Below, piece after piece: positions 8,847 to 43,240 of a stretch of DNA of 64,000 bases. The stretch's first letter is position 1, and every line of letters starts with the position of its first letter. This DNA comes from Lentzea tibetensis (GTDB lineage: Bacteria; Actinomycetota; Actinomycetes; Mycobacteriales; Pseudonocardiaceae), in contig NZ_VOBR01000003.1 of assembly GCF_007845675.1 (NCBI RefSeq), positions 124,001 through 188,000 on the forward strand. Direction: 5' to 3'. Made by a program: the position numbers and the translations under genes. The notes beneath the pieces were generated by a model, which did not search any database, was not told where the DNA came from, and saw nothing but the letters and a program-made list of their open reading frames with translations.

Positions 8847-8851
8847 TCACC

Positions 8852-10087
8852 ATGCGGTTGGCCAACGTGTTCCAGCGCATCACCGGTGGCGGCGGAGACG
8901 TCCGCTTCAGCGCGTACGACGGCAGCAGCGCAGGCCCGGACGACGCACCCGTCCACATCGAGGTGCGCACTCCCGAAGCGTTGTCGTACCTGGCGTCCGC
9001 GCCGGGGGAGCTGGGCCTCGCGCGGGCGTACGTCACCGGCAACCTGGAGATCATCGGTGACGCGCACGGCGCGCTCGCGCAGCTCTCCGAGTTCTCGCTG
9101 CGGGAGATCCCGTGGGCGGAACGCCTCGGGCTGCTGAGCTTCCTCGGCCGCACCCGGATCAACAACCGGGTGAGCCCGCCGCCGCAGGAGACCCGGCTGC
9201 ACGGCCTGCGGCACTCGAAGGAGCGCGACCGGCAGGCGATCGCGCACCACTACGACGTGTCGAACCAGTTCTACGAGTGGATCCTCGGCCCGTCGATGGC
9301 GTACACGTGCGCGGTGTACCCGACCCTCGAGTCCACTTTGGAAGAAGCGCAGTTCGCCAAGCACGACCTCGTCGCCCGCAAGCTGGGGCTGCGCGAGGGC
9401 ATGCGGCTGCTCGACGTCGGGTGCGGCTGGGGCGGCATGGTCATGCACGCCGCCCGCGAGTACGGCGTCCGCGCGATCGGCGTGACGCTGTCGCGCAACC
9501 AGGCCGAGTGGGCGCAGAAGGCGATCATCGACGCCGGGTTGTCCGAGCTGGCCGAGGTCCGCCACCTCGACTACCGCGACGTGCGGGAGACCGGGTTCGA
9601 CGCGATCAGCTCGATCGGGCTCACCGAGCACATCGGCAAGGCCAAGCTGCCCGCGTACTTCCGGTCGTTGTACGCGAAGGTCAAGCCGGGCGGGCGGTTG
9701 CTCAACCACTGCATCACCCGGCCGGACAACCTGCAGCCTGCCCGCACCGGCGGCTTCATCGACCGGTACGTGTTCCCGGACGGCGAGCTCGTCGGCCCCG
9801 GCCACATCGTGTCGCTGATGCACGACACCGGGTTCGAGGTGCGGCACGAGGAGAACCTGCGCGAGCACTACGCGCTCACGCTGGCCGCCTGGTGCCGCAA
9901 CCTCGAGTCGCACTGGGACGAGGCCGTCCGCGAGGTCGGCGAGGCACGGGCGCGCGTGTGGCGCCTGTACCTCGCCGCCTCCAGGCTCGGCTTCGACCGC
10001 AACAACATCCAGCTGCACCAGGTGCTCGGCGTGCGACTCGACGGCGTCAAGTCGCACATGCCGCTGCGCCCGGAGTGGCTGGGCTAA
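8852..10087 (+). CDS. tmsB: SAM-dependent fatty-acyl methyltransferase, CFA-synthase family (TmsB/BfaB)
   Basis: 411 aa from ATG at 8852, with GGGGGAG ending 9 nt upstream. ATG at 8843 overlaps the previous stop (ATGA) and is the alternative. Class I methyltransferase motifs are present: LDVGCGWGGMVMHAA (SAM binding), the acidic strand GVRAIGVTLS, and EHIGKAKLPAYF and KPGGRLLNH typical of cyclopropane fatty acid synthases. The N-terminal 130 residues match the CFA-type helical cap (LAYVTGNLEI-like). With the upstream flavoenzyme it should convert phospholipid-bound oleate to 10-methylstearate. Its TAA stop overlaps the stop of the opposing peptidase gene (10084-10087). Confidence 0.85.
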   Translation: MRLANVFQRITGGGGDVRFSAYDGSSAGPDDAPVHIEVRTPEALSYLASAPGELGLARAYVTGNLEIIGDAHGALAQLSEFSLREIPWAERLGLLSFLGRTRINNRVSPPPQETRLHGLRHSKERDRQAIAHHYDVSNQFYEWILGPSMAYTCAVYPTLESTLEEAQFAKHDLVARKLGLREGMRLLDVGCGWGGMVMHAAREYGVRAIGVTLSRNQAEWAQKAIIDAGLSELAEVRHLDYRDVRETGFDAISSIGLTEHIGKAKLPAYFRSLYAKVKPGGRLLNHCITRPDNLQPARTGGFIDRYVFPDGELVGPGHIVSLMHDTGFEVRHEENLREHYALTLAAWCRNLESHWDEAVREVGEARARVWRLYLAASRLGFDRNNIQLHQVLGVRLDGVKSHMPLRPEWLG

Positions 10088-11445
10088 GGCGCTGGGACGG
10101 GGAAGGCCACCGGGCTGCGGTGGCCTTCCTGGTCCACGGCCCGCACGCCGAAGAACACGTTGTCCTTCGACAGGTCGACGGTGTGCGCGGTGACGGCGCC
10201 GACCGGGATGCGGTGCGTCCAGTCGGCCTCCTGGGTCGGCCGCCACACCACCTCGTAGCCCGCGGCGTCGGAACCCTTGTCCCACACCAGGTCCGTCTCG
10301 TTGGTGAGCCGGTTCGTGCGGATGCGCACGTTCTTCGGCGTGCTCGGCCCGTTCGCGAGCGACCACAGCGCCGCCGCGTTGACCCTGGCGACCCCGGTCA
10401 TGTAGGGGAAGCTGCAGAACTCGACCAGGTCGCCGAACTGCACGCCGTTCTCGACGCGCACGTTCTGGTGCTGGTGCGCGTAGTTCTCGTGCGGCTCGGT
10501 GAACCGCGCCGCGGGCCTGCCGCGCTCGAGGAACGGGATGTGGTCGCCGCCGCGCAGGTACCGGTCCCGCCGGTAGATCACTTCGACGGTCATGCCGGTG
10601 GCGCTGTTGTTCGCGACGTCCGTGACGAACCGCGCGAGCTGCCTGCTGGGCGAGTCGTTCTCGCCGCCGACCGAGCGCCGGATCGCGGCCTGCTCCGGCG
10701 TCTCGGACGTGGGCACGCCCTCGGCGAACAGCCGCACGACCCGGTCGGCGTCCGGCGGTGCGGCGCCGACGATGTCGTTGGTGAACATCCCTTGCAGGTC
10801 AACGGGTTTGAGCGACTCGGCGAGGTGTGCCGCGCCCAGCAGCCCCTGCTCCTCGCCCGCCACGGCGGCGAAGATGATCGTGGCCTTCGGCTTCCTGGCG
10901 GCCATGACGCGGGCGAGCTCCATGACCACGGCGACACCGGACGCGTCGTCGTCGGCGCCGGGCGCGTCGCTGGTGAAGTCCATGACGTCGCTCGCCCGCG
11001 AGTCGTAGTGCCCGGACACCACGTACACGCGGTTCGGGTCCGTGCCGGGCAGCGTGGCCAGCACGTTGGTGATCGTCGTGGGAACCGGGATGCGCCCGCC
11101 GGGCGGCTGGACGAACGACTGGAGCTCGGCGCGGATGCCGTACCCGCCGAGCTCCTTGAGAATCCAGTCGCGGGCCGCGCCGATGCCCCGGATCGGGTCG
11201 GTCTGGCTGGAGAGGGTGTGCCGGGTGCCGAAGCTCGCCAGCTTGCGCACCGACGCCTCGATGCGGCGCTGGTCCAGCGCGCTGAGGATGCGGCGCAGCT
11301 CCCGGTCGGGTTGCTGAGGGCGGATCCGCTGTCCCGGACCCGTCGGCCAGTCGCGGGTGCCGGCCGCCGCGCTCGGGATGGGAACTGCCGCGACCGCGGG
11401 GGTGAGTGCCGCCGCGGCCATGAACTGTCGTCGACTAGGCATCAC
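10084..11445 (-). CDS. Secreted M28-family aminopeptidase with C-terminal Fn3-like domain
   Basis: 453 aa from GTG at 11445 (or the adjacent ATG at 11442). The N-terminus has a twin-arginine type signal (SRRQFMAAAALTPAVAA). M28 zinc motifs are readable: SGHYDSR (His ligand), GADDDASG (bridging Asp), AGEEQGLLG (catalytic Glu and Glu ligand), FTNDIVGA and YAHQHQN. The last 90 residues look like a fibronectin III-type domain (NVRIRTNRLTNETDLVWDKG ... YEVVWRPT). It is a likely exported leucine-type aminopeptidase for peptide scavenging. A DasR-like palindrome (11448-11459) overlaps its SD region, suggesting GlcNAc-linked repression. Its stop overlaps the stop of the facing tmsB gene. Confidence 0.88.
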   Translation of the reverse strand: MMPSRRQFMAAAALTPAVAAVPIPSAAAGTRDWPTGPGQRIRPQQPDRELRRILSALDQRRIEASVRKLASFGTRHTLSSQTDPIRGIGAARDWILKELGGYGIRAELQSFVQPPGGRIPVPTTITNVLATLPGTDPNRVYVVSGHYDSRASDVMDFTSDAPGADDDASGVAVVMELARVMAARKPKATIIFAAVAGEEQGLLGAAHLAESLKPVDLQGMFTNDIVGAAPPDADRVVRLFAEGVPTSETPEQAAIRRSVGGENDSPSRQLARFVTDVANNSATGMTVEVIYRRDRYLRGGDHIPFLERGRPAARFTEPHENYAHQHQNVRVENGVQFGDLVEFCSFPYMTGVARVNAAALWSLANGPSTPKNVRIRTNRLTNETDLVWDKGSDAAGYEVVWRPTQEADWTHRIPVGAVTAHTVDLSKDNVFFGVRAVDQEGHRSPVAFPVPAP

Positions 11446-27535: not shown

Positions 27536-30500
27536 GTGATCAACACAACGTCTCGGTGGAGACACCGCACCGGAGCGGCCTTGCTGGCCGCGGTGCTCGG
27601 TGCATCGGGCCTCGGCTTCGCCGCCACTTCCGCTCTCGCGCAGACGGGTACCTCCGCCGCCAACGAGGCGGACAAGCAGCTCGACAAGCACGACCGCGAA
27701 CTGGTCGCCGAAGCGACCGCTCAGGGCAAGGCCACGGTCGACCTCCTGGTCGCCGCGGAGGACGGCAAGACCGACGCGGCGATCAACGACCTCAAGGCGC
27801 TGGGCGCCACGGTCCAGAAGACCGAGAAGGACGTCGACTACGTCAAGGTCACCATTCCGCGCGACAACGCGGAGAAGGCCGCGAAGCTGAAGTCCGTGAG
27901 CTCGGTCGACGTCGACGGCCTGATCGCGCGGGACGAGCCCAAGCCGGACGGTGTGCAGGACCCGATCCCGCAGAAGGCGCCGGACTCGAAGACGCCCAAG
28001 AAGAACCCTTACATGCCCATCGGTGACACGCAGGCCGTGCAGTTCACCGACGCGCACCCGAAGTGGGACGGCCGCGGCACCACGATCGCCATCCTCGACA
28101 CCGGCATCGACCTCGACAGCCCCGCGCTGTCGACGACGACCACCGGCGAGCGCAAGGTGGTCGACTGGTACAACGCCAACGGCGTGACCTCGGGCGACGG
28201 CACCTGGGTCGCCATGACCAAGACCGGCCGCGTCGGCAAGTTCACCGAGGGCGGCCGCGAGTGGACGGCACCGTCGACCGGTGGCCCGTACTCGTTCGGC
28301 CTCTTCCGCGAGACCGCCGGTGACCTCGGCACCGCGGCCAGCGAGATCGGCGGTGACATCAACCGCGACGGTGACCGCACGGACGCGTTCGGCGTGCTGC
28401 AGGACATCCAGACCAAGGAGGTCTTCGTAGACCTCGACGGTGACGGCAACTTCACCAACCAGAAGCGGATGCTCGACTACAAGGTCAAGCAGGACGTCGG
28501 CTACTTCGGCACCGACAACCCCGCCACCCCGGTGATCGACCGCGTCGCCTTCGTCGTGCAGACCGACCGTTCGATCTACGACACCGCGGGCACGCCGTAC
28601 GTCAACCTGGGCATCGCGGCCGCCGCGCACGGCACGCACGTCGCGGGCATCACGTCGGCCAACAAGCTGTTCGACGGCAAGATGACCGGTGCGGCCCCCG
28701 GCGCGAAGCTGATGGCCGTCAAGGTCTGCCTCTCGACGCCGTCCTGCACCAGCTCCGGCCTGATCGACGGCGTCCTCTACGCCGCGCGCAACGGTGCCGA
28801 CGTCGTCAACATCTCCATCGGCGGCCTGCCGGCGCTCAACGACGGCAACAACGCCCGTGCGGAGCTCTACAACCGCACGATCAACGAGTACAACGTGCAG
28901 CTGTTCATCTCCGCGGGCAACAGCGGCGCCGGTGCGAACACCGTCGGCGACCCGTCCGTGGCGACGGACGCGGTGAGCGTCGGCTCGTACATCACCAAGG
29001 AGACCTGGCTCTCGAACTACGGCTCGGTCACCAAGGACAAGCACAACCTGCACGGCTTCTCGTCGCGCGGCCCGGCCGAGGACGGCGGCTTCAAGCCGAA
29101 CATCATCGCGCCCGGTTCGGCCATCTCGACGACGCCGCGCTGGCAGGCCGGCGGTCCGCTGCCGGGCACGTACGCCCTGCCCGCCGGCTACTCGATGTTC
29201 AACGGCACGTCCATGGCCGCCCCGCAGGCGACCGGTGCCGCGGCGCTGCTCGTCGGCGCGTACAAGGCCTCGCACAACGGCCAGCGCCCGACCTCGGGCG
29301 CGCTGCGCTACGCGATCCAGTCCAGCGCCACGTACATCCCGAACCTGGGTGCGTACGAGCAGGGCGCCGGTCTGTTCAACACCCCGGCCGCGTACGACAT
29401 CCTCAAGAAGAACCCGGCGCCGAACGCCGTCAAGACGGCCGTCCCGGTGAGCACGGTGCTGTCCGGTCTGCTGGCGACCCCGAACGTCGGTGTCGGCATC
29501 CACGACCGCGAGGGCGTCGAGGCGGGCAAGGAGTACACCCGCACCTACACGCTGACCCGCACCACCGGTGCGAACAAGTCGATCAGCTACTCGGTGAAGT
29601 GGAAGGGCAACGACGGCACGTTCACGTCCGACAAGACGGTGCGCCTGCCGCTCAACCAGCCCGTCACCTTCGCCGTGAAGGTGAAGCCGAAGTCGGCCGG
29701 TGTGCACTCCGCGGTGCTGGAGCTCAACGACAGCAACACGCCGGGTGTCGACGTGCAGACGCTGAACTCCGTGTTCGCGACCGAGAACTTCTCCGCCGCC
29801 AACAAGTTCGCGGTGTCGAAGTCCGGCACGGTCGGCCGCAACAAGGGCACGAGCCTGTTCGTGAACGTGCCCAAGGGCACCAGCGCGCTGAAGATCGACT
29901 TGGCCGCCGGTGGCACTGAGGCCGGCAAGGGCCAGGTGCGCTTCCTGCGCTTCACCCCGCAGGGTGTTCCGCTCGACAGCACCGCGTCGACCAGCTGCTA
30001 CAACCCCGACGCCGGAGCAGGCTGCGCCGGTGGCACCGCCACCAGCCGCACGCTGACCAACCCGATGCCGGGTGTGTGGGAGATCGTCGTCGAGGCGCGT
30101 CGCACCTCGGACGCCGACGCCGCTCCGTACAAGGTCACGGCCTCGGTGCTGGGCACGACCATCAGCCCGAACCCGGACGTGATCGCATCGGCGCAGCTCG
30201 GCGTGCCGGTGAACCGCGCCTACACCGTCACCAACTCGCAGGCAGCCTTCACCGGCCGTCTCGTGGGCGGTGCGGTCGGCAGTGCGAAGACGGCTCGTCC
30301 GTCGATCGCGAACCTGGCGCAGCAGGTCTACGACGTCACCGTCGCACCGGGTTCCTCGTCGCTGACGGCGACGATCGGCAACACGACCGACGTGGCCGCC
30401 GACCTCGACCTCATCGTCCTCAACTGCACCACCGGGACCTGCGTGCAGGCCGGTGCGTCGGCGGACGGTGACTCCGAGGAGTCCGTGACGATCGCGAACC

Positions 30501-30784
30501 CGGCAGCGGGTGCGTGGAAGGTCGTGGTGGACGGCTACGCGGTGCCCGCGGGCACCACGGAGTACGACTACTTCGACGTCTACACCGCGGCTTCGCTCGG
30601 CAGCCTGTCCGTGACGGACGCCGACGCGGACCGTCCGGCCGGTGCCTCGTGGAACGTCGCGGGCGTCATCACCGCCGGTGGCCAGCCCGGCGCGGGCCGC
30701 GTGCTGCGCGGTGAGCTCGAGGTGCGCACGTCCGGCAACGACGTCGTCGGCCGCGGTGCCGTGATCGTCCAGTCGGTCAGCTAG
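27536..30784 (+). CDS. Large secreted subtilisin-like protease (S8)
   Basis: 1082 aa from GTG at 27536 with an AAGGG SD 8 nt upstream. The signal peptide runs to about residue 36 (ATSALAQ). An I9-like propeptide occupies about 66-130 (ATVDLLVAAEDG ... YVKVTIP ... VSSVDVDGLI). The S8 domain has all four key residues: Asp in AILDTGID, His in HGTHVAGI, oxyanion Asn in SAGNSGAG, Ser in NGTSMAAPQ. It is followed by about 480 residues of beta-rich repeats (PPC/Fn3-like) containing VDVQTLNSVF and GTVGRNKGTSLFVNVP. It should act extracellularly on protein substrates. A lipoprotein resembling its propeptide is encoded convergently just downstream. Confidence 0.92.
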   Translation: MINTTSRWRHRTGAALLAAVLGASGLGFAATSALAQTGTSAANEADKQLDKHDRELVAEATAQGKATVDLLVAAEDGKTDAAINDLKALGATVQKTEKDVDYVKVTIPRDNAEKAAKLKSVSSVDVDGLIARDEPKPDGVQDPIPQKAPDSKTPKKNPYMPIGDTQAVQFTDAHPKWDGRGTTIAILDTGIDLDSPALSTTTTGERKVVDWYNANGVTSGDGTWVAMTKTGRVGKFTEGGREWTAPSTGGPYSFGLFRETAGDLGTAASEIGGDINRDGDRTDAFGVLQDIQTKEVFVDLDGDGNFTNQKRMLDYKVKQDVGYFGTDNPATPVIDRVAFVVQTDRSIYDTAGTPYVNLGIAAAAHGTHVAGITSANKLFDGKMTGAAPGAKLMAVKVCLSTPSCTSSGLIDGVLYAARNGADVVNISIGGLPALNDGNNARAELYNRTINEYNVQLFISAGNSGAGANTVGDPSVATDAVSVGSYITKETWLSNYGSVTKDKHNLHGFSSRGPAEDGGFKPNIIAPGSAISTTPRWQAGGPLPGTYALPAGYSMFNGTSMAAPQATGAAALLVGAYKASHNGQRPTSGALRYAIQSSATYIPNLGAYEQGAGLFNTPAAYDILKKNPAPNAVKTAVPVSTVLSGLLATPNVGVGIHDREGVEAGKEYTRTYTLTRTTGANKSISYSVKWKGNDGTFTSDKTVRLPLNQPVTFAVKVKPKSAGVHSAVLELNDSNTPGVDVQTLNSVFATENFSAANKFAVSKSGTVGRNKGTSLFVNVPKGTSALKIDLAAGGTEAGKGQVRFLRFTPQGVPLDSTASTSCYNPDAGAGCAGGTATSRTLTNPMPGVWEIVVEARRTSDADAAPYKVTASVLGTTISPNPDVIASAQLGVPVNRAYTVTNSQAAFTGRLVGGAVGSAKTARPSIANLAQQVYDVTVAPGSSSLTATIGNTTDVAADLDLIVLNCTTGTCVQAGASADGDSEESVTIANPAAGAWKVVVDGYAVPAGTTEYDYFDVYTAASLGSLSVTDADADRPAGASWNVAGVITAGGQPGAGRVLRGELEVRTSGNDVVGRGAVIVQSVS

Positions 30785-30847: not shown

Positions 30848-31210
30848 TCACGGCTCGGGGAGGCGGTTGTTGATGGGCTCGTCGACGTCCACCTTGGACA
30901 CACCGGGCAGGTTCGGCACGGCGTCGACCTTCCCGATGGGCACCTCGGCCTTGACGTAGCCGATCCGCGGGTCCTGCGCTTCGACGGCGGCGCCGAGCTC
31001 GCGCAGCGCCTGCTCCACGGCCTCCTGCTGGCCCGCCTTGACGGACACCAGGAGCGTCACGCTCTTCGCACCGTCCTTTTCGGCCTGTGCGACGTACCTC
31101 TTGTTGATCGACGGCGGCACGGACGTCACCTCCGGGGTGGTTGCCGGTACCCCGTTGCTACCACAGCCCGCGACGGCGAGCACGCACGCGGCGACGAGTG
31201 CTCTTCTCAT
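30848..31210 (-). CDS. Lipoprotein resembling an S8 propeptide / I9 inhibitor
   Basis: 120 aa. Lipoprotein signal with lipobox L-A-V-A-G-C (Cys16), then a Ser/Pro/Thr spacer to about residue 35. Residues 47-113 align without gaps to residues 64-130 of the neighbouring S8 protease: by hand count 24 of 67 positions are identical, including V-x-L-L-V, L-G-A-x-V, Y-V-K and V-D-V-D-x-x-I. That segment is the protease propeptide (inhibitor I9 fold). The protein ends seven residues later. It is thus a cell-anchored stand-alone propeptide domain, probably a reversible inhibitor or folding chaperone of the S8 protease or a similar enzyme. It follows the MFS gene by 4 bp and is likely co-transcribed with it. 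Confidence 0.82.
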   Translation of the reverse strand: MRRALVAACVLAVAGCGSNGVPATTPEVTSVPPSINKRYVAQAEKDGAKSVTLLVSVKAGQQEAVEQALRELGAAVEAQDPRIGYVKAEVPIGKVDAVPNLPGVSKVDVDEPINNRLPEP

Positions 31211-33528: not shown

Positions 33529-34638
33529 ATGCCCGAATGGGCGCGTCTGCTGATCACCATTGGCATCTCGGCACTGCTGGCCCTGATCGCCGTCGAGGTC
33601 GTCCACCGCGCGGTCCGCCGACTCACCCACTCCGGCCGCATGTACCGCCCAGGACAACTCTTCGGCGTGCTCCTGGCCGTCCAGATCTCACTGAGCCTGT
33701 CCCGGACACCGGGCGACTGGCGCGGCCCCGCACTGCACGCGACAGGCGTCGCCCTGATCGCGGCCGGCGCGTGGCTGCTGGTCGCCTTCTTCAACACCCT
33801 CGCGGACGTGGCGCTCGCCCGCGTCCCGACGGACGTCACCGACAACCGGCACGCGCGGCGCGTCCACACGCAGATCGCGCTGGTGCGGCGCGTGGCGGCC
33901 GCGGTGCTCGGGGTGCTCGCCGTCGGCGCGATGCTGATGACGTTCCCGAGCGTCCGGGCGATCGGGACCACGGTGCTCGCCTCGGCCGGTGTGATCGGTG
34001 CGGTGGCGGCGTTGGCGGCGCAGTCGTTGCTGGGCAACGTGATCGCCGGTGTGCAGATCGCGTTCAGCGACGCGCTGCGGCTGGCGGACGTCGTCGTGGT
34101 GGAGAAGCAGTGGGGGCGGGTCGAGGAGATCACGCTCACCTACGTCGTCGTGCACCTGTGGGACGACCGGCGGCTGATCCTGCCCACCAGCTACTTCCTC
34201 AAGACGCCGTTCGAGAACTGGACGCGCACGCAGTCCGAGCTGCTCGGCACGGTCGACGTCGATGTCGACTGGACGGTGTCCGTCGAGGAGATGCGACACG
34301 AGCTGCGCGCCATGCTCGAGGGCAACGACCTGTGGGACGGCCGCGTCAGCGTGCTCCAGGTGACCGAGGCCGTGCACACGCTCGTCCGGGTGCGGGCGCT
34401 GGTCAGCGCACCTGACGCCGGCAAGCTGTGGGACCTGCGCTGCCTCGTCCGCGAGCACCTCGTCGACTGGGTGCGACGGCAGGGTGCGATGCCGCAGGTC
34501 CGCATGCGGAAGACCGAGACCGGCACCGGCCCTGCGGCCGCGGAGAGGTCCGACCACCACACCGACGCGCGCGTGTTCGGCGACAGCCCGGACGGCACCC
34601 AGCGCGACCAGGCCTTCTCAGGACCCAAGGGAACCTAG
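33529..34638 (+). CDS. MscS-family mechanosensitive ion channel
   Basis: 369 aa with an excellent SD (GGAGGTGAT at 33515-33523). Four hydrophobic segments occur in the first 175 residues. The last is the pore helix with alternating small residues (GTTVLASAGVIGAVAALAAQSLLGNVIAGV) typical of MscS TM3. The cytoplasmic beta domain follows (DVVVVEKQWGRVEEITLTYVVVHLWDDRRLILPTSYF). The C-terminal 45 residues are charged and disordered. It is an inner-membrane osmotic release valve. The 3' end overlaps the end of the opposing M1 peptidase gene by 4 bp. Confidence 0.9.
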   Translation: MPEWARLLITIGISALLALIAVEVVHRAVRRLTHSGRMYRPGQLFGVLLAVQISLSLSRTPGDWRGPALHATGVALIAAGAWLLVAFFNTLADVALARVPTDVTDNRHARRVHTQIALVRRVAAAVLGVLAVGAMLMTFPSVRAIGTTVLASAGVIGAVAALAAQSLLGNVIAGVQIAFSDALRLADVVVVEKQWGRVEEITLTYVVVHLWDDRRLILPTSYFLKTPFENWTRTQSELLGTVDVDVDWTVSVEEMRHELRAMLEGNDLWDGRVSVLQVTEAVHTLVRVRALVSAPDAGKLWDLRCLVREHLVDWVRRQGAMPQVRMRKTETGTGPAAAERSDHHTDARVFGDSPDGTQRDQAFSGPKGT

Positions 34639-35831
34639 GGCAGCTTGGCCGCGAACAGCCAGGGCGTGAGCAGGTCGCGATGCCCGGCGAGCGCCAGGAA
34701 GTCCTCGGTGGTCGCGGTGCCGTGCCGGTGCCGCGACGTCCACTCGCGCAGCAGCGCGAAGAACGAGTCGTCGCCCAGCGCGCCGCGCAGCGCGTGCAGG
34801 GTCAGCGCGCCCCGCTTGTAGACGCGGTCGTCGAACCAGTCGCGCATCGCCGGGTCGCCGATCACGATGTCCTGCGGCAGCCGCGAGAGCATGTCGCGTG
34901 CGCGTGCGGCCATGACGGTGGCCGTGGGACCGCCCGACGCCTCCGACCACAACCACTCGGCGTAGCAGGCGAAACCCTCGTTGAGCCAGATGTGCTGCCA
35001 GTCCGCGATCCCGACGCTGTTGCCGAACCACTGGTGCGCCAGCTCGTGCGCGACGAGCCGCTCGAAGCCGCGGCGGCCGTCCACGTGGTTCGCGCCGAAC
35101 GTCGACAGCGCCTGCGCCTCGACCGGTACCTCGAGGTCGTCGTCGGTGATCACCACCGAGTACTGGTCGAACGGGTACGGGCCGAACAGGTCCTCGAAGA
35201 CCTCGATCATCCGCGGCTGGCGGGCGAAGTCGTGCGCCGCCAGGCGACGCAGCCGCTGCGGCGCGAACACGCGCGGCGCGACCTCGACGTACTGTCCGAT
35301 CTGGACCGACGCCAGGTAGGTCGCCATCGGCTCCGTCGCCGAGTAGACCCACGTCGTCGTGCTGCCGCCGATCCGGCCGTCGGCCAGGACCCCGTTGCAC
35401 ACCACGGTGTACGGCGACGGCGCGACCACCGTGATGCGGTAGGTCGCCTTGTCCGACACGACGTCGTTGCACGGGAACCAGGACGGCGCGCCGAACGGTT
35501 GCGACGCGACGATCGAGCCGTCGGCGAGCTGGTCCCAGCCCAGCTCGCCCCAGTACATCGTGCGCACGGGGCGCGGGGTGCCGACGTAGTGCACCTCGAC
35601 GGTGAACTCGCCGCGCACGGCGCCGCGGATGCGGAGCTTGCCGTTGCTGTGCGTGTAGCGAACGGGCTTCCTGTTCACCAGCACCTTGTTGATGCGGAAC
35701 GGCCCGAGCGACAGCTCGAAGCCGGGCAGCGGCTTCGGCGCGACAGCCGTCAGCACCGCACGCCCTGCCAGGCGTGCGGCGTGCGGCTTGTAGTCCAGTT
35801 CGAGCTCGTAGTGCCGTACTGAGAACGTCAT
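34635..35831 (-). CDS. M1-family zinc aminopeptidase coupled to a Pls-like synthetase
   Basis: 398 aa from ATG at 35831 (MTFSVRHYELELDYKP), overlapping the stop of the NRPS gene as ATGA. The M1 core is clear: zinc motif HELAHQW with the third ligand Glu 18 residues on (LNEGFACYAE) and the proton-donor Tyr in the RVYKRGALTLHALR region. The substrate-recognition motif GxMEN of classical M1 enzymes reads VPVEAQ, keeping only Glu. No signal peptide is seen and the C-terminal domains of large PepN enzymes are absent. M1 peptidases next to poly-amino-acid synthetases may trim or degrade the polymer for self-protection. That role is inferred from coupling. Confidence 0.88.
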   Translation of the reverse strand: MTFSVRHYELELDYKPHAARLAGRAVLTAVAPKPLPGFELSLGPFRINKVLVNRKPVRYTHSNGKLRIRGAVRGEFTVEVHYVGTPRPVRTMYWGELGWDQLADGSIVASQPFGAPSWFPCNDVVSDKATYRITVVAPSPYTVVCNGVLADGRIGGSTTTWVYSATEPMATYLASVQIGQYVEVAPRVFAPQRLRRLAAHDFARQPRMIEVFEDLFGPYPFDQYSVVITDDDLEVPVEAQALSTFGANHVDGRRGFERLVAHELAHQWFGNSVGIADWQHIWLNEGFACYAEWLWSEASGGPTATVMAARARDMLSRLPQDIVIGDPAMRDWFDDRVYKRGALTLHALRGALGDDSFFALLREWTSRHRHGTATTEDFLALAGHRDLLTPWLFAAKLP

Positions 35832-38800
35832 TGCCAAGCGGAGATCGGGTTTCCGAGCCATCTTGTCCCGGACGGTACCTCTTCGCCGCGCATGACGAGC
35901 GAAGCGGGTCCGACAGTCGTGTGGGCGCCGACGGACGCTCCGGGAAGGACGATGCCGTGCGGGCCCAGTGTGGCGCCCTCGGCCAGCGTGACCCGGTCCA
36001 TCCGCAGGATGCGGTCGTGGAACAGGTGCGTCTGCACCACGCAACCGCGGTTCACGGTCGCGCCGTCGCCCAGTCGCACGAGGTCCGCCTCGGGCAGCCA
36101 GTACGACTCGCACCAGACACCGCGCCCGATGCGCGCGCCGAGCAGGCGCAGCCACGTGTTCATGATCGGCGTGCCGCCGGAGAACCCGACCAGCCACGGC
36201 ACCGCGAGCGTCTCGACGAACGTGTCCGCCAGCTCGTTGCGCCACACGAACGCGCTCCACAGCGGGTACTCCCGCGTGCGGAACCGGCCGATCAGCGTCC
36301 ACTTCGCGACGAGCGCCACCAGGCACGCCGCGACACCGGCCGCGAACAGCACCAGCCCGCTGGCGAGCAGCGCCCACACGCCGAACTCGCGCAGCGCGAA
36401 CAGCACCAGCACGACGAGCGCCACGTTCAGCACCACCGGCGCGAACCGGCACAGCTCGACCAGCGCACGGGCGATCATCAGCCTGCGCGGCGGGTCGAAC
36501 GTGCGGCTCTGGTCGCCGCCCTCCGCGGTGCGCGGCAGCTTCATGGGCGGCATGCCGAGGTACGAGTCACCGGCCTTGGTGCGCTTCGGCGTCGAGGACA
36601 GCACGCCGACCAGCCCGCCCTTCGGCACCGCGCGACCGGGAGCGGTCATGCCGGAGTTGCCGAGGAACGCGCGCTTGCCGACGCGAGCCGTCGCCAGGTG
36701 CATCCAGCCGCCGCCGAGCTCGTAGGAGGCGACCATCGTGTCGTCGGCGAGGAACGCGCCGTCGCCGACGCGGGTCATCTTCGGCAGCGCCACGACCGTC
36801 GACGCCTCGACGCGGCGGCCGACGCGCATGCCGAGCGCCCGCAGCCACACCGGCGTGAACAGGCTGGCGTACAGCGGGAACAGCGCGGTGCGCGCGGTGT
36901 TCATCAGCCGCTCGGTCGTCCACGCCTGCCACGCGATCCGGCCGTGCACGGGGTAGTAGCCCTCGCGCATGCCGATGCCGAGCAGCCGCACGGACACCAG
37001 CACGAGCAGCGCGTAGCAGCCGAACCAGATCACCGACGCCACCGGCACGTCCAGCAGCGCCGAGCGCAACGTCATCTGGCTGCCGGAGAGCACACCGCCC
37101 GAGAACGTGAGCGGGCCGCCCAGCACGTACAGCACCGCGGGCAGCGCCGCGAGCACGGGCAAAGCGCTCAGCGCGGCCGAGCTGACGCCGTACATGAAGC
37201 TCCAGAAGTGCGACCGCGCCGGACGGCGCCGCGGCCAGTCGCGCGCGGCCTTGCCGGACTTCGTCGCGGGCACACCGCCCCAGCGCTGGCCGGTCGGCAC
37301 CGAGCGGGCGACACCGGAACCCGGCGCCACCTCGGCCCGCTTGCCGATCCGCGCACCGGGGAACAGCGTGCTGCGCGCACCGACCGTGGCACCCGCGCCG
37401 ATGCGGATGCGGCCGACGCGCAGGACGTCGCCGTCCAGCCAGTGGCCGGACAGGTCTACCTCGGGCTCGACCGCCGCGTTGCGGCCGATCTTCAGCATGC
37501 CGGTGACCGGCGGCAGCGAGTGCAGGTCGACACCGGCACCGATCTTGGCGCCCAGCGCGCGGGCGTAGTGCGTGACCCACGAGCCGGACAGCTCGGTGGC
37601 ACGGGACAGCTCGGCCAGCTTCTCGGCCGTCCACAGTCGCATGTGGACACTGCCGCCGCGCGGGTAGGCGCCGGGCTTCAAGCCGCCCAGCAACATCCGG
37701 GCGCCGATCGCGGAGATCGCGAGCCTGCCGGGCGGGCTGATGAACACGGCCCAGCCCGCGGCGACCCACCACCACGAGACGTGCGTCCAGCCGATGACGT
37801 TGCTCAGCGCGGCCAGCAGCGTCACCCAGCGCGCACCGGCGATGGTGAGCAGCGGGATCATCAGCAGCGTCTGCAGGACACCGGTCCACCGCGGCGTGGG
37901 CGCGACGACGCGCACCTCGGCCGCTTCGGCGTCGAACGACTCCAGCCGCTTCGCCATGGCCTGCAGCGTCGGGAACTGGTAGACGTCGGACACGGAGCCG
38001 CTCGGGTACTTGACCCGGATCAGCGACACGAGCTGCGCGGCGGAGAGGCTGCTGCCGCCGCACGCGAAGAAGTTCGCGGCCGGGCTCGCCGGACCGGTGC
38101 CCAGCACGGACACCCACTGCTCGGCGAGCCAGCCCTGGGTGCCCTCGAACTGCACGGCCGCGGTGTCCAGCGACTCGAGGGGCCACGGCAGCGCGGCCCG
38201 GTCGACCTTGCCGGAGGTGCGGGTGGGAAGCGTGTCGACGACCGCGAGCAGCGGCACGAGCGCGGCGGGCAGTTCGGTGCGCAGCTGCTCCACGGCGGCC
38301 GCCTGGTCGAAGTTCTCCGAGGCGACGACGTAGCCGACGAGCAGCTGGTTGCCGCCGCGCGTGGTGCGCACGGCCGCGGCCGCGCCGGCGACCTCGGGCA
38401 GCGCCTGCAGCGCCGCGTCGACCTCGCCGAGCTCGATGCGCCTGCCGCCGAGCTTGATCTGCTCGTCCGCGCGGCCGAGGAAGATCAGGCCCTCGGGCTC
38501 AGCGCGGACCATGTCACCGCTGCGGTACGCGCGGTCCCAGCCCATCGACGGCAGCGGCGCGTACTTCTCGGCGTCTTTCTGCTCGTCGAGGTAGCGCGCG
38601 AGGCCCACGCCGCCGATGACCAGCTCGCCGGACTCGCCCATCGGCACGACCTCGCCGGCCGCGTCGACGACGACGAGCTCCCAGCCGTCGAGCGGCAGCC
38701 CGATGCGCACCGGACCCTCGCCGGTCAGCTGCGCGGCGCACGCGACGACAGTTGCTTCCGTTGGGCCGTAGGTGTTCCAGACCTCGCGGCCTTCGACCGC

Positions 38801-39646
38801 GAGCCGCTCGGCCAGCTCGGGCGGGCACGCCTCGCCGCCGAAGATGAGCAGCCGCACGTCGTCCAGCGCCTCGACCGGCCACAGCGCGGCGAGCGTCGGG
38901 ACGGTCGAGACGACCGTGATCTCCTGCTCGACGAGCCACGGCCCGAGGTCCATGCCGGTGCGCACGAGCGAGCGCGGAGCGGGGACGAGGCAGGCGCCGT
39001 AGCGCCACGCCAGCCACATCTCCTCGCACGACGCGTCGAACGCGACGGACAGGCCGGCGAGCACGCGGTCCTCGGGGCCGATCGGCTCCTCGGTGAGGAA
39101 CAGGTTCGCCTCGGCGTCGACGAACGCGGCCGCCGAGCGGTGCGTGACCGCGACGCCCTTCGGCTTGCCCGTCGAGCCGGACGTGAAGATGATCCACGCG
39201 TCGTTGTCGAGGCCGGGTTCGCCCTCGACGCCGATCGGCGCGTCCTTGACGGTGATGGACCGGCCGGCGCCGAGCACGGCGCAGACGCCCGCCTCGCCGA
39301 ACACGAGCTCGGCCCGCTCGTCCGGGTCCTCGGCGTCGACCGGGACGTACGCGGCGCCGACGGCGAGCGTCGCGAGGATGCTCACGTACAGGTCCACGGT
39401 GCCCGACGGCACGCGCACGCCGACCCGGTCGCCGACGCCGATGCCCTCGGCGGAGAGCTTGGCCTTCAGGTCGTTGATCTCGGTGAGGAGCGCGCGGTAC
39501 GTCAGCGCGGTCGTGCCGTCGTCGACGGCGAGCGCGTTCGGGTGCTCCTCGGCACTCGCGCGCAGGATGTCCAGCAGCGTGCGCGCCTGGGTGGCCTCGC
39601 CTGCGGTGAACATCGAAAGGGCTACGGGCTCCATCACAACGGTCAC
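35828..39646 (-). CDS. Pls/PosA-type membrane NRPS (poly-amino-acid synthetase family)
   Basis: 1272 aa from GTG at 39646. Adenylation domain about 20-510 (FTSGSTGKPKG, FDASCEEMW, NTYGPTEAT, RSGDMVR, TRTSGKVDR). Thiolation domain about 540-615 with phosphopantetheine Ser in CGGSSL. Six hydrophobic segments follow (for example LQTLLMIPLLTIAGA, SWWWVAAGWAVFI, VVLNVALVVLVLFAL), interleaved with three left-handed beta-helix-like domains (hexapeptide stretches such as RIRIGAGATVGARSTLFPG and LAEGATLGPHGIVLPGASVG). There is no condensation or thioesterase domain. This A-T-TM layout is that of epsilon-poly-L-lysine synthetase and relatives, which make linear homopolymers at the membrane. Length (about 1.3 kaa) matches. 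The M1 peptidase gene overlaps its 3' end. Confidence 0.88.
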   Translation of the reverse strand: MTVVMEPVALSMFTAGEATQARTLLDILRASAEEHPNALAVDDGTTALTYRALLTEINDLKAKLSAEGIGVGDRVGVRVPSGTVDLYVSILATLAVGAAYVPVDAEDPDERAELVFGEAGVCAVLGAGRSITVKDAPIGVEGEPGLDNDAWIIFTSGSTGKPKGVAVTHRSAAAFVDAEANLFLTEEPIGPEDRVLAGLSVAFDASCEEMWLAWRYGACLVPAPRSLVRTGMDLGPWLVEQEITVVSTVPTLAALWPVEALDDVRLLIFGGEACPPELAERLAVEGREVWNTYGPTEATVVACAAQLTGEGPVRIGLPLDGWELVVVDAAGEVVPMGESGELVIGGVGLARYLDEQKDAEKYAPLPSMGWDRAYRSGDMVRAEPEGLIFLGRADEQIKLGGRRIELGEVDAALQALPEVAGAAAAVRTTRGGNQLLVGYVVASENFDQAAAVEQLRTELPAALVPLLAVVDTLPTRTSGKVDRAALPWPLESLDTAAVQFEGTQGWLAEQWVSVLGTGPASPAANFFACGGSSLSAAQLVSLIRVKYPSGSVSDVYQFPTLQAMAKRLESFDAEAAEVRVVAPTPRWTGVLQTLLMIPLLTIAGARWVTLLAALSNVIGWTHVSWWWVAAGWAVFISPPGRLAISAIGARMLLGGLKPGAYPRGGSVHMRLWTAEKLAELSRATELSGSWVTHYARALGAKIGAGVDLHSLPPVTGMLKIGRNAAVEPEVDLSGHWLDGDVLRVGRIRIGAGATVGARSTLFPGARIGKRAEVAPGSGVARSVPTGQRWGGVPATKSGKAARDWPRRRPARSHFWSFMYGVSSAALSALPVLAALPAVLYVLGGPLTFSGGVLSGSQMTLRSALLDVPVASVIWFGCYALLVLVSVRLLGIGMREGYYPVHGRIAWQAWTTERLMNTARTALFPLYASLFTPVWLRALGMRVGRRVEASTVVALPKMTRVGDGAFLADDTMVASYELGGGWMHLATARVGKRAFLGNSGMTAPGRAVPKGGLVGVLSSTPKRTKAGDSYLGMPPMKLPRTAEGGDQSRTFDPPRRLMIARALVELCRFAPVVLNVALVVLVLFALREFGVWALLASGLVLFAAGVAACLVALVAKWTLIGRFRTREYPLWSAFVWRNELADTFVETLAVPWLVGFSGGTPIMNTWLRLLGARIGRGVWCESYWLPEADLVRLGDGATVNRGCVVQTHLFHDRILRMDRVTLAEGATLGPHGIVLPGASVGAHTTVGPASLVMRGEEVPSGTRWLGNPISAWQ

Positions 39647-39739: not shown

Positions 39740-41503
39740 TCACCTGTTTGGGCGGTCTTCTTGGCACGAATTCATCAGCGGGTTGTCCGCCAGCAGCTTG
39801 CGCGCCTTCTCCCGGCTGAGGTTCCAGTCGCGGAAGTCCTCGTCGTGGACGGGCATGAGCCGCGGGCTCCAGATCGCGCAGCTGCGCAACGGTTCGGGCA
39901 GTTCGTAGATCGCGGGGACGGCGTCACCGGACAGCTGCTGGAGGTAGTAGGTGTCGATCTTGCCGGTCTCCTTCCAGCGCGTGACGTTGTGCTCGGCCAC
40001 GATCGCCTCGGGGTTGAGCACGGCCAGCGCCAGGAAGAACGCCGTTCCGGTGCCGACGACGGCCCGCGGCAGCCAGGCCGCCCTCAGCTGGACGCCTGCC
40101 GCGATCACCAGCAGGTACACCAGCCCGAGCCACAGCTCGCACGCGCCGACCAGCAGCCGCAGCACGGTGAACCCGTACGCCTCCTGGTAGAACCACATCC
40201 GGCTGAGCGCGGACGTGACGATCACCAGCGTCAGCACGGCGAGCGCGCCGAGCAACCCGCGCAGCCACATCTGGTCGCGCACCGTCTCCTTGGCCGACCA
40301 GCGCGCGACGACCCCGATGACCGCCAGCGTCAGCACGGTGACCCACAGCAGCTGCCAGAACCCGGACCGCGCGTACTCGGCGAACGTCACGCCCGCGGTG
40401 CGCTGCACGTAGTCGTTGCCGCCGAACAGAACCGCGACCTGCGTCGCGAGGAACCCGGTGAACAGCACCACGAGCACGCCGACCGGCAGCGCGTAGTCCT
40501 TGGGCCGCAACGTCCCCGGCTTGCGCGCACCCTCGTCCTTGATCTGCGCGGGTGACGTGACGAGGTAGCAGGCTCCGAACGCGCCGAACCCGGCCACGAC
40601 GAACATGAAGATCCACCAGGACGCCTTGTCCGGGTCGATCGACGGGGTCAGCCGGTTCATGAACTCGTTGAACGTCGCGTCCGCGCTGGCGAGCAGCGAC
40701 CCGAACACCATGAGCAGCAACAGGCTCACGCCGACCGAGATCACCGACCGCACGTTGCGCGGCCGCGCGTTCGCCAGCCCTCGCGCCACCCACGGCACCG
40801 ACCTCAGCGCCGCCAACGGGATCGCGATCGCGCTGAACGCGACGCTCAGCACCGAGCGGCCGTTCACCAGCGCCATCGCGCCGCAGAGCACCGAAGCCAT
40901 CACGCACAACGGGAACAGCCAGTCGGCGTCCCTGATCGCGCCGATGCCCAGCAGTGCGATCGCCGCGGCCAGCCAGACCGCCTGCGCCGCGGTCGGGCGC
41001 TTGACGTAGTAGACGAACGCGCCGAGTCCGACCAGGCCGGCCAGCAACCAGCCGATGCCGATCGTCTGCGGTGTCAGCGCCGCCGCGCCGAGACCGGTCG
41101 CCACACCCACCCAGATGACCTTCGCCGGTGCCGGGCTCTGGGGCGGGCGCCACCACGGGAAGACCGGGGCAGGGGGTTGCTGGAGGATCATCGGGCCGCC
41201 GGTCGGGTAGGGCGGCGGGGTGAACATCTTCACCGCGGGACCGGACTGGGCCTTGGTGGTGCGGGGAGCGTTGATGACCGGATCGCTTTCTGGCTCGTCG
41301 GTGTCGGATGCCTCGGGTTCGTCGTCGAATTCGTGTTCGGACCGCGGGTCTTCGTCGTCCGCCTCAGGCTCGGCGTCGTCGTCGGTTTCCTGCCGGGGCA
41401 ACGGTTCCTCGCCAGGTGAGGCGTCGCTGGCCGCGCCGCTCCACTCGGCATCGGGCTCGTCAGGCCCCTGCGTGGCGCGGTCGTCGTGATCGGACGTGGG
41501 CAT
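39740..41503 (-). CDS. DUF4173 multi-pass membrane protein
   Basis: 587 aa from ATG at 41503, chosen for the GGAGA 9 nt upstream. The first 85 residues are highly acidic and low-complexity, then a Pro-rich stretch (PPPYPTGGPMILQQPPAP). About eleven or twelve hydrophobic segments follow. The block FGGNDYVQRTAGVTFAEYARSGFWQLL is the signature of DUF4173, found in many actinobacteria. The C-terminus (YYLQQLSGDAVPAIYELPEPL ... NLSREKARKLL) resembles a soluble tail. Function unknown. It lies between the Pls-like gene and a two-component system, all on the minus strand. Confidence 0.82.
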   Translation of the reverse strand: MPTSDHDDRATQGPDEPDAEWSGAASDASPGEEPLPRQETDDDAEPEADDEDPRSEHEFDDEPEASDTDEPESDPVINAPRTTKAQSGPAVKMFTPPPYPTGGPMILQQPPAPVFPWWRPPQSPAPAKVIWVGVATGLGAAALTPQTIGIGWLLAGLVGLGAFVYYVKRPTAAQAVWLAAAIALLGIGAIRDADWLFPLCVMASVLCGAMALVNGRSVLSVAFSAIAIPLAALRSVPWVARGLANARPRNVRSVISVGVSLLLLMVFGSLLASADATFNEFMNRLTPSIDPDKASWWIFMFVVAGFGAFGACYLVTSPAQIKDEGARKPGTLRPKDYALPVGVLVVLFTGFLATQVAVLFGGNDYVQRTAGVTFAEYARSGFWQLLWVTVLTLAVIGVVARWSAKETVRDQMWLRGLLGALAVLTLVIVTSALSRMWFYQEAYGFTVLRLLVGACELWLGLVYLLVIAAGVQLRAAWLPRAVVGTGTAFFLALAVLNPEAIVAEHNVTRWKETGKIDTYYLQQLSGDAVPAIYELPEPLRSCAIWSPRLMPVHDEDFRDWNLSREKARKLLADNPLMNSCQEDRPNR

Positions 41504-41573
41504 GGTTGTTCGTCTCCAGGGCATGCGTCATCGCCGCACCACCGAGTGTGCGCGCGTCAGGGCTGAATGAAGG

Positions 41574-42566
41574 TCAGTAGCGGGGAAGTGCGACCCGGAT
41601 GCGGGATCCGGGGTCGACGACGGCGATGGTGCCGCCGTGCAGGTCCACCACCCAGCGGGCGATGGCGAGTCCGAGTCCGGTGCCGCCGCCTCCGGCGCGC
41701 TCGCCTCGGGTGAAGCGTTCGAAGATGCGGCCGCGGTCGGCCACGGCGATGCCGGGGCCCTCGTCGCGAACCTCGATGAGGATCGAGTCGGTGGTGGCGG
41801 ACGCGATGACGTCGATCCTGCCCGCGCGCGGGCCGTGGCGGGCGGCGTTGTCGAGCAGGTTGACGACGACCTGGTACAGGCGTTCGGCGTCGGCCATGAC
41901 GGTCAGGTCCGGTGGGGTGACCGAGATCGAGAACTGGGCCTGCGGTGCGGCGACGCGGGCTTCGGCGACGACGTCGGCGAGCAGCGTGTCGACGAACAGC
42001 TCCTCGCGGTTGAGGCTGAGCGCACCCGCGTCGATGCGCGAGAGGTCGAGCAGCTCGGTCACCAGCTTGCCGAGACGTTCGGTCTGGGCGAGCGCGGTGC
42101 GCATGGTGTCGGAGTCGGCCTCGGCCACGCCGTCCACGACGTTCTCCAGCACCGCTTGCAGAGCCGAGATCGGGGTGCGCAGTTCGTGCGACACGTTGGC
42201 GATCAGCTCGCGGCGCTGCTGGTCCGCGGTGGCCAGGTCGTTGGCCATCAGGTTGAACGCGTCGGCCAGCTCGCCGACCTCGTCGCGCGAGGTGGCGCGG
42301 ATGCGGCGGGTGTAGTCGCCCTGAGCCATGGCGCGGGCGGCGCTCGTCATCTCGCGCAGCGGGCTGGTCATGCCGTGCGCGAGCAGCTGCGAGGTGACCA
42401 GGCCGAGCACGAGCGCGGCGACCGTGGTCTGCGCGGGCAACCAGCCGATCTTGTAGCGGAAGAACGCCATGCAGACCGCGCCGGACGCGACGAGCACGAT
42501 GCCCAGCTTCAGCTTGATCGACCGGATCGGGTCGAGCGGCCGCGGCAGGTGCTCCATCAGCCTCAC
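41574..42566 (-). CDS. Sensor histidine kinase
   Basis: 330 aa from GTG at 42566, overlapping the response regulator stop by 4 bp (GTGA), with GGAGGTG as SD inside the upstream gene. Two close hydrophobic segments (about 17-65) leave almost no extracellular sensor loop. HAMP follows (MTSPLREMTSAARAMAQGDY). HisKA has the phosphorylated His in IANVSHELRTPISAL. HATPase has NLLDNAARHG, RDEGPGIA and GGGGTGLGLAIARWV. It is a membrane kinase that phosphorylates its cognate regulator, encoded just upstream. Its lack of a periplasmic domain suggests membrane or intracellular sensing. Confidence 0.92.
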   Translation of the reverse strand: MRLMEHLPRPLDPIRSIKLKLGIVLVASGAVCMAFFRYKIGWLPAQTTVAALVLGLVTSQLLAHGMTSPLREMTSAARAMAQGDYTRRIRATSRDEVGELADAFNLMANDLATADQQRRELIANVSHELRTPISALQAVLENVVDGVAEADSDTMRTALAQTERLGKLVTELLDLSRIDAGALSLNREELFVDTLLADVVAEARVAAPQAQFSISVTPPDLTVMADAERLYQVVVNLLDNAARHGPRAGRIDVIASATTDSILIEVRDEGPGIAVADRGRIFERFTRGERAGGGGTGLGLAIARWVVDLHGGTIAVVDPGSRIRVALPRY

Positions 42567-43240
42567 CGCGGCACCTCCAGCGCGTACCCCACGCCGTGCA
42601 CCGTGCGGATCAGGTCCGCGCCCAGCTTGCGGCGCAACGCTTTGACGTGGCTGTCGACGGTCCGCGACGACGCGCCCGCGTGCCAGCCGCACACCTCGTT
42701 GAGCAGCCGTTCCCGCGCCTGCACGGCACGCGGCCGTTCGGCGAGGAACACCAGCAGCTCGTACTCGGTGGGCGTCAGGTGCGCCTCGGCGGGCCCCCGG
42801 TGCACGCGCCGCTCGGTCAGGTCGATCCGCAGGTCGCCGAGCACGATGCGGCTGGCGGCCGACACCCGCTCGACGCGCCGCAGCAGCACGTGCACCCGCG
42901 CGGCCAGCTCGCGGATCGAGAACGGCTTGGTCAGGTAGTCGTCGGCCCCCACCGCGAGCCCGACCAGCAGGTCCGTCTCGTCGCCGCGCGCGGTCAGCAT
43001 CAGCACCGGCACCGGCCGCTGCGCCTGGATCCGGCGGCACACCTCGAGCCCGTCGAAACCGGGCAGCATCACGTCGAGCACGACGAGGTCCGGCTCGATC
43101 TCGAGCGCCTTCGCCACGGCGGCCGGGCCGTCGTGCGCGAGGTCGACCACGAAGCCCTCGGCACGCAGCCGCGCCGCCACCGACTCCGCGATCGTCAGCT
43201 CGTCCTCGACGACCAGAACGCGTCGCTGTCCCCCTGTCAT
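42563..43240 (-). CDS. OmpR-family response regulator
   Basis: 225 aa. Receiver domain 1-120 with acidic pair VVEDE, phospho-Asp in LVVLDVMLPG, Thr in LMLTARG and Lys in YLTKPF. The winged-helix DNA-binding domain follows (LTPTEYELLVFLAERP ... SRTVDSHVKALRRKLGADLIRTVHGVGYAL). It is the first gene of a two-gene operon with the kinase (4-bp overlap). Its targets are unknown; the DUF4173 gene downstream on the same strand is a candidate by position only. Confidence 0.94.
   Translation of the reverse strand: MTGGQRRVLVVEDELTIAESVAARLRAEGFVVDLAHDGPAAVAKALEIEPDLVVLDVMLPGFDGLEVCRRIQAQRPVPVLMLTARGDETDLLVGLAVGADDYLTKPFSIRELAARVHVLLRRVERVSAASRIVLGDLRIDLTERRVHRGPAEAHLTPTEYELLVFLAERPRAVQARERLLNEVCGWHAGASSRTVDSHVKALRRKLGADLIRTVHGVGYALEVPR

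Follow-up and report, generated by a model that had tools for sequence, protein, structure and literature searches.

What does a membrane-bound nonribosomal peptide synthetase (NRPS) of the soil actinomycete Lentzea tibetensis polymerise, and on which side of the membrane does the peptidase encoded directly behind it act? Both genes lie on the minus strand of the window, by which we mean the whole 64,000-nucleotide stretch that was analysed (contig label G000:C33; genome of 9.36 Mb). A sequence-only reading of this DNA had taken the pair for a Pls-like cationic poly-amino-acid locus. That view is supported by the placement of the synthetase in one lysine-code clade with the crystallised epsilon-poly-L-lysine (epsilon-PL) synthetase 7WEW and the enzyme of Corynebacterium variabile. 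We consider it very probable that the locus is an epsilon-PL operon of the genus Lentzea, with a coupled M1 metallopeptidase that is predicted to be cytoplasmic.

The synthetase, its pocket and its C3 segment

The synthetase (1272 amino acids; 35828..39646, minus strand) is a predicted epsilon-PL synthetase on the basis of its TIGR02353 match, its Pfam domains and its identity to 7WEW. The computed family assignment is clear: TIGR02353, the model of the Pls/PosA family, scored 765 bits (cut-off 423.1) over residues 590-1268. Pfam detected an AMP-binding domain (residues 29-351) and a PP-binding domain (residues 506-568), with weaker matches to AMP-binding_C (408-480, just below the cut-off) and to a hexapeptide stretch (747-780). 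The order of adenylation, thiolation and membrane domains proposed earlier for this open reading frame (ORF) was thus borne out, and the Pfam listing for the synthetase contained neither a condensation nor a thioesterase domain, in agreement with the same reading.

The adenylation domain (residues 14-492; 38171..39607) scored 664 bits against 7wew_A in phmmer and is 67.6% identical to 7WEW over 478 amino acids. With pocket positions placed in what we take to be the PheA/Stachelhaus register, the computed pocket is DAESIGTVVK (D204, A205, E208, S247, I268, G270, T292, V300, V301 and K480), identical to that of 7WEW in 10/10 residues. Positions D217/M218/E221 of PosA, the delta-poly-L-ornithine synthetase, fit D204/A205/E208 of the window enzyme, and lysine-activating members carry alanine at the position of PosA Met218, where the diaminopropionate (Dap) synthetase has phenylalanine (PMC10522769). 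The sequence-only reading had left the monomer unpredicted. Because the ten pocket residues equal those of 7WEW and alanine occupies the Met218 position, L-lysine can be predicted.

The thiolation (carrier) domain (residues 506-568; 37943..38131; PF00550, 3.2e-8) contains the motif FFACGGSSL, in which Ser533 is the likely phosphopantetheine site; this serine is unchanged throughout an alignment of 83 rows (L115 was omitted for its length). In the mechanism that we propose, the adenylation domain would activate L-lysine and load it onto Ser533, and the membrane-bound C-terminal half would link one lysyl residue to the next via the side-chain amine and move the polymer across the membrane.

This C-terminal half (35843..37879) carries three soluble segments, C1 to C3. 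A simple hydropathy scan gave five transmembrane peaks (residues 594-612, 824-842, 867-885, 1065-1083 and 1095-1113). The family expectation is three transmembrane pairs, and the sixth helix lies below the hydropathy threshold in the window synthetase. A profile of 83 relatives matched solved hexapeptide enzymes in C1 and C3, indicating homology to left-handed beta-helices; among the 60 matches listed, none to a hexapeptide enzyme fell in C2. Of the three beta-helix segments originally proposed, C1 and C3 are therefore backed by profile matches, and we infer C2 to be a segment of the same kind.

The C3 segment contains the motif QTHLFHDR (Q1205-R1212; 36011..36034), which C1 and C2 lack. Q1205, H1207 and D1211 occur in every row of both the lysine-code and the other groups. 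Position 1210, however, is H in 109/109 lysine-code rows and E in 16/16 others (four rows being duplicates), and position 1235 is P in 99% of the lysine-code rows versus Y in 16/16 others (duplicates included). QTHLFHD was also found in 20 further loci and in C. variabile. This conservation suggests that C3 is likely to be the catalytic segment of peptide-bond formation, in which His1207 might act as general base. The motif, with H1210 in the lysine-code enzymes sampled and E in the others, offers a defined target for identifying the residue responsible for catalysis in a peptide polymerase that works without a condensation domain.

Two lineages of lysine-code enzymes

Phylogenetic placement was computed with FastTree only. 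The named relatives were 80 loci (the best 80 of 581), and the other codes were represented by relatives with such pockets, rather than by the gamma-poly-diaminobutyrate (Dab), beta-poly-Dap and PosA synthetases themselves. When the first adenylation-domain tree was rooted on these other-code sequences, those with the lysine code formed one clade (107/107, support 0.93). Enlarged trees returned this clade from the adenylation domain (127/127, support 0.86) and from the full-length protein (126/126, support 1.0). The first adenylation-domain tree leaves out L005, L007, L109 and L110, which have too few columns in that domain. L158 duplicates L077; both were kept in the enlarged synthetase trees and in the M1 tree, so that the 126 tips include this one pair. 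The duplicates L117, L011, L015 and L018 are absent from the trees and from the overlap and export-signal counts, and present in the neighbour and C3-motif counts.

The sequence-only reading would have fallen had the synthetase grouped with NRPS-like proteins that make other products. Among the sequences available, it instead lies in one clade with 7WEW and with the C. variabile enzyme, which makes epsilon-PL on expression. By sequence, then, the window protein groups with the epsilon-PL synthetases.

Within the lysine-code clade there are two lineages. The 7WEW-type lineage comprised 12 full-length enzymes, all from Streptomyces (support 1.0), which 7WEW itself joined in the adenylation-domain tree (13 tips, 0.78). 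The window synthetase belongs to the other, wider lineage, a clade of 113 tips with support 0.95 for the full length and 0.75 for the C-terminal part. Over the full length it is 56-58% identical to six 7WEW-type enzymes, compared with 66-69% for seven enzymes of its own lineage that come from Streptomyces. Five Streptomyces genomes hold copies from both lineages, the pairs being 55-60% identical. The nearest named relatives, among the best 80 of 581, are Lentzea enzymes (83-87%), and the named relatives also include Streptomyces, Amycolatopsis, Nocardia and Rhodococcus. A search with the 7WEW adenylation domain at 1e-150 matched 166/392 Streptomyces genomes; among the matches listed, 23 reached an identity of 74% or more, and the rest stayed at 71% or below. 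TIGR02353 matches above cut-off were present in 25/25 Lentzea genomes searched, in 43/61 genomes of the relatives search (own genome included) and in 14/296 genomes sampled across the phylum, with three candidates scored per genome.

An expressed member of the window lineage is provided by C. variabile DSM 44702, whose synthetase yielded epsilon-PL of 26-35 residues in Streptomyces coelicolor (PMC8117764). Its genome was recognised solely through the published cloning primers, which matched without mismatch in 1/242 genomes of its genus; in an earlier, wider sample the primer had matched 0/401 genomes. The C. variabile enzyme has the pocket and the C3 motif of the window synthetase and is 59.5% identical to it, and 52.3 and 52.7% identical to two 7WEW-type enzymes. 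In the full-length tree it joins the window enzyme in a clade of 114 tips that contains no 7WEW-type enzyme (support 0.956). Downstream lies an M1 gene, which resembles that of the window in having no signal at its N-terminus, as judged by eye, and differs from it in starting 10 bases past the synthetase stop, with no overlap. Since the reverse primer used for cloning reaches no further than the stop codon of the synthetase, this peptidase was outside the expressed construct.

A peptidase predicted to stay inside the cell

The second gene of the window locus (34635..35831, minus strand) encodes an M1 zinc metallopeptidase of 398 amino acids, shorter than PepN and without a recognisable signal peptide. 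It matches Peptidase_M1 (2.5e-28), keeps HELAH at residues 262-266 and the NEGF glutamate, the third zinc ligand, at 285, and has as its closest solved relative 6a8z, a compact zinc metalloprotease of 474 amino acids. As the sequence-only reading held, its ATG at 35831 overlaps the synthetase TGA in an ATGA (35828..35831). The mechanical ORF listing gives the peptidase 605 amino acids, the extra part overlying the synthetase gene in another frame. A downstream peptidase gene with the same 4-bp overlap is found in pls-pldII of Streptomyces albulus (PMC4361855), and the coupling of an M1 enzyme to Pls is thus already known. PldII degrades epsilon-PL, and repression of pldII lowers tolerance (PMC4361855, PMC9223678).

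PldII is described as lying outside the cell membrane (PMC9223678), and here the two lineages part. In the 7WEW-type lineage an M1 neighbour was present in 10/12 loci, with a twin-arginine signal in 10/10; no M1 was detected in the remaining two. These two (L143 and L147, in G587 and G706) come from genomes that also carry a window-lineage copy with its M1. In contrast, the twin-arginine motif was found in 0/104 loci of the window lineage (the window itself being included as L001). In the 85 of its M1 proteins in which 13 or more residues precede the homologous part, mean hydropathy was at most 1.22, compared with 1.50-1.92 in ten M1 proteins of the 7WEW lineage. Seven further distinct loci agree with the absence of an export signal. 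The window M1 itself showed neither a hydrophobic nor a twin-arginine N-terminus in this sequence test, at odds with a PldII-type location. Lentzea M1 proteins start almost at the conserved fold and lack the DPYLPxHGNxGY-like segment of most other genera.

The substrate-end motif also differs. It is PxEAQ in the window lineage (E in 105/105 rows, followed by A in 102, the window counted twice; PVEAQ in the window M1) and PVENQ in 10/10 PldII-type proteins. We take it to be the counterpart of GxMEN in other M1 enzymes.

Since no export signal is recognisable in the window lineage, we predict that the window M1 is cytoplasmic, and since PldII lies outside the membrane, the two are not assumed to act alike. 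The trimming or self-protection suggested by the earlier reading would hold here only by analogy. In our scheme the translationally coupled enzyme would stay in the cytoplasm and hydrolyse epsilon-lysine chains released or left in the cell, for protection or recycling. We did not find this difference between lineages in the literature, as judged from titles and abstract openings, with subscription journals mostly out of reach; a term search of PMC9223678 and PMC8117764 returned no passage on a signal peptide.

The strongest rival to an exported antibiotic polymer keeps lysine as the monomer and gives the locus a housekeeping role: only short oligomers would be made, or the polymer would be retained in the cell or attached elsewhere, and the cytoplasmic M1 would turn it over. 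The presence of the family in every Lentzea genome searched, the spread of the named relatives over several genera, the five Streptomyces genomes that keep a window-lineage copy beside a 7WEW-type copy, and the M1 export signal unrecognised in 104/104 loci all fit such a role. The C. variabile enzyme, however, is of the same lineage and, expressed without the peptidase gene, made chains of 26-35 residues in S. coelicolor. We regard the housekeeping role as possible though on balance doubtful.

Linkage, neighbouring genes and known systems

The M1 gene could also be an unrelated neighbour serving general peptide turnover, with no bearing on the polymer. An irregular junction would suit this idea: of 104 distinct loci, only 53 allow an NTGA overlap, 31 have some other start that overlaps, and 20 have no overlapping start. 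However, the computed gene linkage is tight. M1 lies directly downstream in 107/109 lysine-code loci, the exceptions being L009, at a contig end, and L114, and in 0/15 assessable others (11 other-code loci, a twelfth lying at a contig end, and four that lack an adenylation domain). Moreover, the M1 proteins branch as the synthetases do, with the PldII-type proteins together (10/10, support 1.0) and the others together (0.62, weak). The two groups are united against two M1 paralogues of the window genome (support 0.94), and PldII, the sister group of the window M1, degrades epsilon-PL (PMC9223678). An unrelated M1 is therefore improbable. One of the paralogues in the window genome (L130, G000:C27:91572-92759), 40% identical to the window M1, has what looks by eye like a Sec-type signal peptide and could serve this strain as a secreted partner.

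Polymerisation of ornithine, Dab, Dap or beta-lysine, all of which the family accommodates (PMC10522769), is very unlikely given a pocket identical to that of 7WEW, an Ala205 position that is Met in PosA and Phe in the Dap synthetase (PMC10522769) and F, S, G or C in 12 other-code loci, and the lack of an M1 neighbour in all 11 other-code loci with enough downstream sequence.

Several observations count against an active epsilon-PL operon with a cytoplasmic M1. Epsilon-PL was detected neither from C. variabile itself nor from C. glutamicum in which the synthetase protein was expressed (PMC8117764), and loci of this kind may therefore be silent. That C. variabile falls on the same side of the root as the window enzyme has support of 0.887 from the adenylation domain alone and 0.37, which is weak, from the C-terminal part alone. 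The cytoplasmic location depends on a signal being absent in a simple hydropathy and motif test; M1 starts were sought up to 20 bases before the synthetase stop, and a longer form is possible. L114 (G030:C23) has the lysine code and 7 kb of downstream sequence without an M1 match. Finally, taking the best 80 of 581 loci biases the named set towards close relatives. The genome of L114 holds three further TIGR02353 copies above cut-off.

Directly upstream of the synthetase, on the same strand, are genes for a response regulator, a histidine kinase and a DUF4153 membrane protein (39740-43240). In a neighbour count over 128 loci (125 with a synthetase match and 108 with M1, including the window as L001 and four duplicate pairs), the genes for the DUF4153 protein, the kinase and the regulator had homologues in only 6, 8 and 8 loci, and the RecD-like and MscS-like neighbours in 8 and 7; all were rejected as parts of the system. 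Many of these loci had only 1.5 kb of flank, too little to show further neighbours. All four named Lentzea loci have these homologues, as does Umezawaea (L036), and Crossiella (L040) has most of them. The neighbouring genes are thus synteny of close relatives and not a fixed part, though a regulatory link within the Lentzea/Umezawaea/Crossiella branch is possible. Elsewhere in the window, a lipoprotein-like small protein (30848-31210) lies near a subtilase (27536-30784), and the two have similar N-terminal or inhibitor-like segments by eye.

Other family members came to light in the survey. Three Lentzea genomes (L123, L124 and L125; G018:C21, G016:C1 and G007:C45) encode a second synthetase with the pocket DSECYGGVTK, the code of a Bdellovibrionales enzyme; a Bdellovibrionales homologue had modest arginine activity (PMC10522769). 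In L123 its gene overlaps a SET-domain gene, with a PucR regulator and an amino-acid permease nearby, making this a candidate locus for an arginine-like polymer. In L109, a TIGR02353 protein without an adenylation domain (thiolation plus membrane domain, 862 amino acids; 8116-10701) adjoins a separate adenylation-thiolation protein, a TauD-like dioxygenase and an SbnB (diaminopropionate biosynthesis) gene; it is perhaps a split-module relative for a Dap polymer. The family members in L110 and L007/L117 likewise lack an adenylation domain.

Compared with S. albulus Pls (7WEW) and PldII, the window locus has the same domain order, pocket and downstream M1 with a 4-bp overlap (PMC4361855), and its C3 motif recurs in five 7WEW-type relatives with adenylation domains 86-94% identical to 7WEW. 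The M1 proteins of that lineage carry a twin-arginine signal and PVENQ, whereas the window M1 has neither. Near relatives stood in for the S. albulus proteins in these comparisons, no adenylation domain in the 392 genomes being more than 94% identical to 7WEW. PosA (8G95) of Acinetobacter baumannii shares family and architecture with the window enzyme but has the code DMEHNGTVSK. Epsilon-PL clusters have already been described in two Lentzea genome papers, one with 100% homology in three strains and one with 100% antiSMASH similarity (PMC11092160, PMC13151722). Because these reports and the pls-pldII arrangement are published, the locus is of a known type: a further predicted epsilon-polylysine maker on an existing list, with a peptidase variant worth testing.

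The sampled lysine-polymer operons fall into two lineages, with coupled peptidases predicted on opposite sides of the membrane. We tentatively suggest that they represent two designs that separated long ago. The first would use an exported peptidase to protect the producer from polymer outside the cell. In the second, the design of this locus and of most of the sampled named relatives, an M1 enzyme with the EAQ motif would act in the cytoplasm on nascent or retained polymer, controlling chain length or keeping the locus cryptic. The split offers a simple test of why strains such as C. variabile show no product: if the suggestion is true, removal of the M1 enzyme would free polymer from strains thought to be non-producing.

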